From: Snodgrassella communis
GTDB taxonomy: Bacteria > Pseudomonadota > Gammaproteobacteria > Burkholderiales > Neisseriaceae
Direction of reading: 5' to 3'
Assembly (NCBI RefSeq): GCF_914768045.1
Contig: NZ_CAJZCD010000001.1
Span: 1 to 64,000 of the forward strand
DNA: 64,000 bases
A program made the position numbers and the translations under genes. Under the pieces are notes generated by a model. The model had not been told where the DNA came from. It saw nothing but the letters and a program-made list of their open reading frames with translations, and searched no databases. The first letter of the stretch is position 1. Each line of letters opens with the position of its first letter. Below are positions 25,150 through 27,297 of the stretch, in pieces.

Positions 25150-25830
25150 TCAGTCAATACTTGCCGTCCATAATTTCATTGCAAAAGCTATGAACATTAA
25201 CCCGACTGTGGCTACCGCACCAGCAGCCAGTCGCTGATAATGACGAAACCACTTTACCAGCGATATACCACTGAATATCAGTACACTCAGATAGGTTAAA
25301 CTGCAAATTTGCAAAATAATAGCCAGCAATAGGAAGCTAAATGCTGGCTGTGGATAATGCGGATCAACAAATTGTACAAAAAAAGCTAGGAAAAACAGTA
25401 TGGCTTTTGGATTTAACAGGCTTAACAGTAACGCACGCTGAAATAAATAATGCGCTGAAAGTGGTTTATCTGCACTATTCGGTTCACTCAACGATTGCCT
25501 GAAAGCTTCTGCTGCCTGCTGATGCCTTCTGCTCCATTGTCTGGCCGCTGAACGCAGTAGCTGCCAGCCCAGATAAAACAGATATAATCCTCCCACCAAT
25601 TTCAGCAATAAAAATAATACAGGAATGGTTTTTATAATTGATGTTGCACCAGAAGATGAAAGTAGCATCAATACGCTGTCACCCAGAACTATACCCGCCA
25701 CAGCACAATAAGCTGCTCTAGCACCATATTTGCCGGCTATGGCCAAACAGTACATGGAATTGGGTCCGGGCAATAAAACGATGGCGATGGCACCGATAAT
25801 ATATGTTCCCAGATCAGTAATACCAAACAT
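25150..25830 (-). CDS. leuE: LysE/RhtB-family amino-acid exporter, LeuE-like
   Basis: 226 aa inner-membrane exporter with about six hydrophobic segments. The family motif AIVLLPGPNSMYCLA lies at about residues 16-30, and GDSVLMLLSSSGATSIIKTIPVLF and LLSLLNPKAILFFLAFFVQFVD closely follow E. coli LeuE. The substrate (leucine or related amino acids) is inferred from that resemblance. AGGA lies six bases before the start. It sits between carA and carB, 56 nt after carA and 74 nt before carB, with no obvious terminator, so it probably belongs to the same transcript. Confidence 0.87.
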   Translation of the reverse strand: MFGITDLGTYIIGAIAIVLLPGPNSMYCLAIAGKYGARAAYCAVAGIVLGDSVLMLLSSSGATSIIKTIPVLFLLLKLVGGLYLFYLGWQLLRSAARQWSRRHQQAAEAFRQSLSEPNSADKPLSAHYLFQRALLLSLLNPKAILFFLAFFVQFVDPHYPQPAFSFLLLAIILQICSLTYLSVLIFSGISLVKWFRHYQRLAAGAVATVGLMFIAFAMKLWTASID

Positions 25831-25886: not shown

Positions 25887-27020
25887 TTATTCCTGACGCG
25901 CAACCCGCATATGTTCGATAAAACGGTCAAACAGATAGGACACATCGTGTGGCCCAGGATTGGCTTCAGGATGCCCTTGAAATGAAAAGGCCGGCTGTGT
26001 AGTCATGCTGATGCCTTGTAATGAGCCGTCAAACAGTGATTTATGGGTAATGCACACATTTTGTGGCAAGGTGTCCGCATCTACTTCAAAACCATGATTC
26101 TGGCTGGTAATCACTACTCGACCAGTTTCGAGATCTTGTACCGGATGATTGGCACCATGATGACCAAAAGGCATTTTGCGAGTTTGTGCTCCTAAGGCCA
26201 GACCGAGTAGTTGATGCCCCAGACAGATACCAAACAATGGCAGTTTATGTGCCAGAATTTCCTGTACAGCCGCAATAGCATAATAACAAGGTTGCGGGTC
26301 GCCGGGACCATTGGACAAGAATACGCCGTCGGGATTCATTGCCAGTACTTCTGCCGCCGGCGTAGCAGCTGGAACAACAGTCAAGCGACAGCCACGCTCA
26401 CTAAGCATACGCAGGATATTGGTTTTTACCCCGAAATCATAGGCAACAACATGGTATTGAGCTGCTGGTGGCTGAACATAGCCCTGCCCCAGCTTCCATT
26501 CACCTTGTGCAAACTCATACTTTTCTGTACAGCTTACTTCTCGCGCCAAGTCCTTACCGGCCATACTGCCAAAGGCTTGCGCCAATGCCAGTGCCTGCTC
26601 TGCACTGGCATTATCGCCTGTCAGAATACAGCCAGCCTGTGCACCTTTATCCCGTAGCAGGCGGGTAAGACGGCGTGTGTCAATATCGGCAATTGCCACG
26701 GTTTTATGGCGCTGCAAATATTGAACCAGACTTTCATTGGCGCGGAAATTACTATGTAATAAAGGCAAATCCCGAATTATCAAACCAGCAGCATAAACTT
26801 GATTACTCTCAGTGTCTTCGCTGTTTACGCCTGTATTGCCTATATGCGGATAAGTAAGAGTAACCATCTGCTGTGTATAAGATGGGTCGGTAAGAATTTC
26901 CTGATAGCCAGTCATGCTGGTGTTGAACACTACTTCTCCAACTGCCTGCCCAGTCGCACCAATGCTGACACCATGAAATACGGAACCGTCAGCCAACACT
27001 AAAATTGCGTTTGTAGTCAT
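25887..27020 (-). CDS. carA: Carbamoyl-phosphate synthase small subunit
   Basis: 377 aa glutaminase subunit that feeds ammonia to CarB. The N-terminal CPSase domain includes [17 protein letters not shown]. The class I amidotransferase domain has the nucleophile in [17 protein letters not shown] and the His/Glu pair in [15 protein letters not shown] precedes the ATG by seven bases. Upstream lies a good promoter and then a terminator-type hairpin, which suggests attenuation of this transcript. Confidence 0.98.
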
Positions 27021-27112
27021 GATTGATTCCTATGGATTTAAGTAGACTATTGCCGTGGCGACAGTCTGTTTTTATCGGTAAATAATTGTGCTTCCTGTTA
27101 CCAATTGCAGGC

Positions 27113-27147
27113 AAAAAAAAACACGCCACTTCACGCAAAATGGCGTG
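27113..27147 (-). terminator. Intrinsic terminator/attenuator in the carA leader
   Basis: On the minus strand, CACGCCA / TGGCGTG (7 bp, 12-nt loop) is followed by a run of nine Ts. It lies 93 nt upstream of the carA start and about 60 nt downstream of the candidate promoter, the geometry of a transcription attenuator. An open frame from 27195 runs through it and overlaps the start of carA. Confidence 0.75.
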
Positions 27148-27206
27148 AGCTACGTGCTTGATGATGGCAGGGATAGGGATATCTGACGCTACCATGAAAG
27201 CAATAT

Positions 27207-27235
27207 ATTTTAGCTAATCCTTTCTGTTTTGGCAA
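27207..27235 (-). promoter_or_regulatory. Candidate sigma-70 promoter of carA
   Basis: On the minus strand, -35 TTGCCA (27230-27235) and -10 TAAAAT (27207-27212) are separated by exactly 17 nt. It stands between the guaB end and the carA leader hairpin, so the predicted transcript would begin near 27200 and meet the hairpin within about 60 nt. Confidence 0.65.
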
Positions 27236-27273: not shown

Positions 27274-27297
27274 GGGCAGCCCCCAGACTGCCCTTTT
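27274..27297 (+). repeat. Inverted repeat GGGCAG...CTGCCC after guaB
   Basis: A 6-bp G/C-rich stem with an 8-nt loop lies 30 nt past the guaB stop. The T-rich tail (TTTTATATT) lies on the plus strand, so it is in the wrong orientation for a simple guaB terminator. Its arms (GGGCAGCCC and CCAGACTGCCC) resemble those of the repeat at 1856-1884, suggesting a common origin. Confidence 0.45.

Follow-up and report, generated by a model that had tools for sequence, protein, structure and literature searches.

The carA gene of Snodgrassella communis is preceded by a leader that is very probably a conserved attenuator of carA, found in nearly all of Neisseria, Snodgrassella and their relatives, N. gonorrhoeae included. 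Its predicted RNA begins with GCUU, the complement of the AAGC that forms the terminator foot, and this pairing is retained in 71 of 71 leaders. The resulting helix, here called P0, likely acts as an antiterminator, to judge from conservation and folding. More tentatively, at somewhat less than even chances, we propose that an attenuator shared across the family uses the initiating base as its sensor, as a shift of the +1 position by one base would strip the outer pair from the antiterminator and flip an intrinsic terminator. The control of carbamoyl-phosphate synthesis in Neisseria, Snodgrassella and their relatives appears to be undescribed in the literature searched, and our search returned no report on the Neisseriaceae carA leader.

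The carA leader in Snodgrassella communis

The window, that is, the whole analysed stretch of 64,000 nucleotides, carries on its minus strand guaB (28786-27326), a gap of 305 bp, and carA (27020-25887). A first-pass annotation of the same DNA had placed in this gap a promoter, TTGCCA and TAAAAT with a 17-bp spacer, followed by a hairpin with a tail of nine T residues, 93 nt before carA; on the minus strand, this description is exact. The features of the leader are as follows.

27230-27235, minus strand: -35 element TTGCCA, from sequence; TTGC is retained in most of the genus
27207-27212, minus strand: -10 element TAAAAT, from sequence; TARAAT in 61/61 unique family leaders
27201 and 27200, minus strand: predicted alternative start bases, G (6 nt past the -10 element) and C (7 nt past it), from spacing and published start-site rules (PMC5730371)
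27198-27201, minus strand: 5' arm of P0, GCTT, the predicted transcript 5' end and antiterminator arm; invariant in 61/61 unique leaders
27164-27195, minus strand: P1 hairpin, ATGGTAG (27195-27189) with CTGCCAT (27170-27164), from folding z and two-sided changes
27156-27159, minus strand: 3' arm of P0, AAGC, which doubles as the A-rich terminator foot, from conservation and pair counts
27122-27156, minus strand: terminator stem-loop, CACG (27156-27153) with CGTG (27125-27122), from folding and conserved register
27148-27143 and 27136-27131, minus strand: upper terminator stem, TCACGC with GCGTGA, capping the CACG/CGTG stem in the window
27113-27121, minus strand: U9 tract (T9 in DNA), from sequence; predicted end of an attenuated RNA of ~89 nt
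25887-27020, minus strand: carA, carbamoyl-phosphate synthase small subunit (TIGR01368, 482.6 bits)

The distance of 93 nt is that from the U9 tract to the carA ATG at 27020. The annotated hairpin stands, but not its 7-bp stem (27147-27141 with 27128-27122), which is a local alternative; relatives keep the register of CACG with CGTG.

Taken as a lone sequence, the leader offers weak evidence. Two promoters were found against 1.3 expected from shuffles, and two terminators against 0.6, so that such sites are near the shuffle level in this single-sequence test, and the fold has z = -2.2 against shuffles. The leader stands above chance because it is conserved across the genus and the family.

The same intergenic region holds two further hairpins. 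One, GGGCAG..CTGCCC at 27274-27293, lies directly past guaB, with a plus-strand T tail that is wrongly oriented for this gene; close relatives repeatedly show hairpins at the same site, which are not seen in more distant members of the genus. The other, a small one on the minus strand (GACTGT..ATAGTC, 27045-27066), is located between the U tract and the ribosome site of carA, and looks covarying among close relatives. In addition, a gene for a LeuE-like amino-acid exporter (25150-25830) lies between carA and carB.

Conservation in Snodgrassella and Neisseriaceae

The carA regions of all 14 Snodgrassella genomes retain the promoter, the start region with GCTT, AAGCACGTA and CGTGTTTTTTTTT, and the terminator, while the intervening stretch is variable. 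Outside the genus, the terminator pattern is positioned upstream of carA; it is present in exactly one copy each in 29 of the 83 family genomes, with none in the reversed control. A common layout, TARAAT-N5-GCTT-P1-AAGCACG-covarying stem-CGTG[T/C]TTTTT, was found in 71 of 77 Neisseriaceae carA upstream regions. The P1 region ranges from 15 to 52 nt and differs among species in sequence as well as length, and the spacing between the -10 element and GCTT is exactly 5 nt in 71/71, three of these leaders having an extra GCTT one base past the -10 element. This depth of conservation at carA supports the initial proposal of a promoter-plus-terminator attenuator for this gene.

From 32 leaders, two of them from Snodgrassella and the window leader excluded, we built a covariance model, which recovered the window leader at 27113-27201. 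The model had a match in 70 of 83 genomes of the family, almost always a single strong one at carA; extra matches were weak, and the one inspected (genome G072) was a terminator past carB. A strict exact pattern gave 29 matches in a collection of 84,980 species, 28 of them in Neisseriaceae, including N. gonorrhoeae, Alysiella and Eikenella; the 29th, in Gracilibacillus, was rejected as a chance terminator. A class-wide pattern search yielded four matches outside the family, which were in or beside unrelated genes as far as inspected, and none had the leader.

The six regions without the shared layout come from three genomes of one genus (g4) and from genomes G025, G034 and G053. In G025 and G034, both of the genus Neisseria (g5; loci L069 and L075), the carA terminator has a different stem and there is no GCTT start; the foot of the G025 terminator is AAACACGC. 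These terminators may be a separate version. An apparent GUUUG:CAAAC compensation in G025 was not borne out on folding, and no P0 was seen in G034.

Probable pairing of the RNA 5' end with the terminator foot

Two blocks of the leader are strongly constrained. GCTT is invariant in the 61 unique leaders, with variable bases around it, and AAGCACG is near-invariant. A helix that joins the start of the RNA to the foot of the terminator would explain both. All P0 pairs counted (128/128) are standard ones, and the sole deviating leader, which has AGGC, still pairs through U-G. Moreover, the G of AAGC is invariant, although in 53 of 61 leaders the terminator pairs it with U. As an A would serve the terminator equally well where the partner is U, this G is needed for P0 rather than for the terminator. 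P0 is only 4 bp long and its pairs are almost unvarying within the family, with no compensatory double change there.

The remaining helices do vary in a paired fashion. In an alignment made without structure, two-sided changes were seen in four of the five pairs of P1 and in all five pairs of the upper terminator stem. The covariation score was reached by none of 500 shuffles and every slid register scored lower, controls that leave relatedness in and hence give strong support rather than formal proof. In addition, P1 alone folds better than its shuffles (mean z = -2.7).

Predicted folding

To represent the decision point, we folded RNAs ending at CGUG, with the U tract still in the hybrid; the values given here describe equilibrium on truncated RNAs, not kinetics. 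For RNA starting at the G six nucleotides past the -10 element (G6), the predicted values are 0.89 for P0 and 0.10 for the C-G pair that closes the terminator, whereas for RNA starting at the next base (C7), this closing pair is predicted at 0.94. In the window leader, the predicted values for the closing pair are 0.06 (G6) and 0.70 (C7). In these models, P0 and the terminator are mutually exclusive and sensitive to one base. This contrast is permissive and not proof, because any 4-bp helix weakens on the loss of an end pair.

When P1 alone was shuffled, P0 dropped from 0.89 to 0.50, and the real value exceeded the shuffled mean in 60 of 61 leaders, as would be expected if P1 exists to join the arms of P0. 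Once the RNA is complete, the terminator is predicted to be the more stable fold, on average by 4.1 kcal/mol, which means that read-through would need kinetic trapping, that is, a kinetic switch.

Proposed start-base switch and its alternatives

We propose that the leader (27201-27113) is a ribosome-independent transcription attenuator of carA, operating as follows. With initiation at G6 (27201), the RNA would begin with GCUU, and these four bases would pair with AAGC to form P0, closing P1. P0 would then sequester the foot of the terminator, comprising its closing C and the A tract that faces the U tract, and transcription would read through into carA. With initiation at C7 (27200), P0 would lack its outer G-C pair, the terminator would close, and an RNA of ~88 nt would be released. 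Plentiful CTP would favour C7 and termination, while low CTP with normal GTP would favour G6 and read-through. In this way, the enzyme producing carbamoyl phosphate would come under feedback from pyrimidines, and the presumed sign of the CTP/GTP response fits such feedback. To this model as a whole we give an even chance, and to its central step, the control of attenuation by start-base switching, marginally less than that.

The two start sites, the use of both and their control by nucleotides are inferred from known rules of start selection, by which starts are most frequent 7 nt past the -10 element, a purine following a pyrimidine is preferred, and the choice is sensitive to the initiating NTP (PMC5730371). 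A G at 6 nt and a C at 7 nt past the -10 element are present in 61/61 unique leaders. Since G6 is the better base and C7 is at the better position, the two form a plausibly balanced pair.

The choice between the same antiterminator and terminator could also depend on the binding of a protein or metabolite, or on the speed or pausing of the polymerase, rather than on the start base. The alternative structures would be conserved whatever the signal is, but the strongly conserved bases are all accounted for by P0 or the terminator, P1 is unconstrained in its sequence, its loop and its length (15-52 nt) and so offers no conserved pocket, and there is no Rfam match. We consider this explanation unlikely. 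A fixed, unregulated attenuator that reduces carA expression, or a terminator that serves as a source of small RNA, is less probable still: it agrees with the strong terminator, the state that the predictions favour for full-length RNA, but leaves unexplained why the invariant start bases are complementary to the foot, why the spacing is fixed, and why P1 favours P0; for a small RNA, there is also no conserved unpaired seed.

It is quite improbable that GCTT is an initiation element acting in DNA, for instance in nucleotide-sensitive escape, and that its match to AAGC is incidental. The fixed position of GCTT, 5 nt from the -10 element in 71/71, would suit such an element, as would the conserved GUUU start in a sister family, similar to that of E. 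coli carAB P1 (PMC6245113), but the invariant G of AAGC opposite U and the support that P1 gives to P0 would have no explanation.

The first-pass annotation had likened the arrangement to translation-coupled attenuation as in enteric pyrBI, with a frame starting at 27195 as the leader ORF. In the window, this frame is indeed open through the hairpin for 68 codons and ends inside carA, but comparison of leaders in the genus and the family refutes a leader peptide and makes it very improbable. Of the two elements expected to align among relatives, the hairpin is conserved and the leader ORF is not: owing to stops or to indels in P1, the frame is broken in 11 of 14 Snodgrassella genomes and crosses the terminator in only three. 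Across the family, any frame crosses the U tract in only 31 of 71 leaders, many leaders have no start codon, and the spacing of AAGC from the start falls into all three frames. Besides, the ATG is ~7 nt from the predicted 5' end, with no room for a ribosome binding site. Finally, the view that the hairpin is only the guaB terminator, with carA transcribed from a promoter downstream of it, is hardly tenable. The position of guaB directly upstream in Snodgrassella would agree with it, but synteny refutes it: the leader precedes carA also in genera without guaB upstream (fifteen loci of other genera keep it with guaB outside the fetched 1.5-kb flank). In addition, the hairpin has a conserved promoter of its own, placed ahead of it at a fixed spacing.

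Relation to described systems

No Rfam family, riboswitch or leader, matched the carA leader above the gathering score. The closest parallels are found in other pyrimidine genes. In the Bacillus subtilis pyrG attenuator, which works by CTP-sensitive reiterative transcription, the extreme 5' end of the RNA base-pairs with the 5' side of the terminator. Its action is described as preventing attenuation (PMC4448216). Similarly, in the carA leader the extreme 5' end would oppose the terminator of a pyrimidine gene without a ribosome or a regulatory protein, and GCUU would pair with AAGC in 71/71 by sequence and fold. Unlike the carA leader, pyrG adds untemplated G at a run of G at its start, while GCUU contains no run of at least three bases. 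Reiterative transcription at GCTT was rejected for lack of a base run, GCTT being present in 61/61 unique leaders. Thus, where extra bases vary in pyrG, the proposed variable in the carA leader is which base is +1.

At pyrC and pyrD of E. coli and Salmonella, purine and pyrimidine starts a few bases apart alter a hairpin based on the RNA 5' end. The choice of start is set by nucleotide pools, according to the passage of PMC5730371 that cites Wilson 1992, Sorensen 1993 and Liu 1994. The carA leaders likewise have purine and pyrimidine candidate starts within 6-9 nt of the -10 element (61/61). The difference is that the pyrC/pyrD hairpin hides the ribosome binding site, whereas the 5' end of the carA leader would disarm an intrinsic terminator. 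In the window, P0 and P1 overlap the terminator and are separated by more than 130 nt from the start of carA, and there is no occlusion of the ribosome site.

Transcription from P1 of E. coli carAB is subject to UTP-dependent slippage on GUUU (PMC6245113). The gene is the same and pyrimidine control at the first transcribed bases is what we propose for Neisseriaceae, but Neisseriaceae start with GCUU and lack a run of three T, GTTT being confined to sister families. E. coli pyrBI shares with the carA leader a promoter, a leader and an intrinsic terminator ahead of a pyrimidine gene; unlike the latter, where no translated leader is conserved, pyrBI requires one.

By analogy, the carA leader would combine the working of pyrG with the input of pyrC/pyrD, without one defining feature of each. 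If true, nucleotide-sensitive start choice and 5'-end antitermination would be joined in a single device without added bases, a ribosome or a protein, and to our knowledge no described system couples start-site switching to the control of termination. The capacity of the first RNA bases to pair with the terminator, and thereby to disarm it, suggests that the choice of the start base sets the amount of the carA enzyme. The leader would also make a clean system for measuring the effect of a single 5' base on termination.

The carA leaders of sister families

At carA, three sister families (f28, f51 and f5) show a GC-rich hairpin, and their starts are U-rich or of the GUUU type. In f28, probably Chromobacteriaceae, the carA promoters (loci L149-L178) are followed by a near-invariant [AG]GTTTA[AT]CC[AG]AACGGG..CCCGTT, in which a GUUU start like that of E. 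coli carAB P1 precedes a GC-rich hairpin; the U tail of the latter is short, and CACAT often comes next. No Rfam match was found for these leaders at the loci tested. The equivalent of P0 is weak or absent in the sister families, and we rejected its transfer to them, as GUUU:AAAC is only 4 bp, is often absent from the folds and is outcompeted by the GC-rich hairpin. Hence the P0 switch seems to be confined to Neisseriaceae. A GC-rich hairpin close past the promoter (AGCGGGA..TCCCGCTTTGCACATCCG and variants) was also observed at loci L133-L143 and in other carA upstream regions of the order, and it occurs at carA in many further families of the same order.
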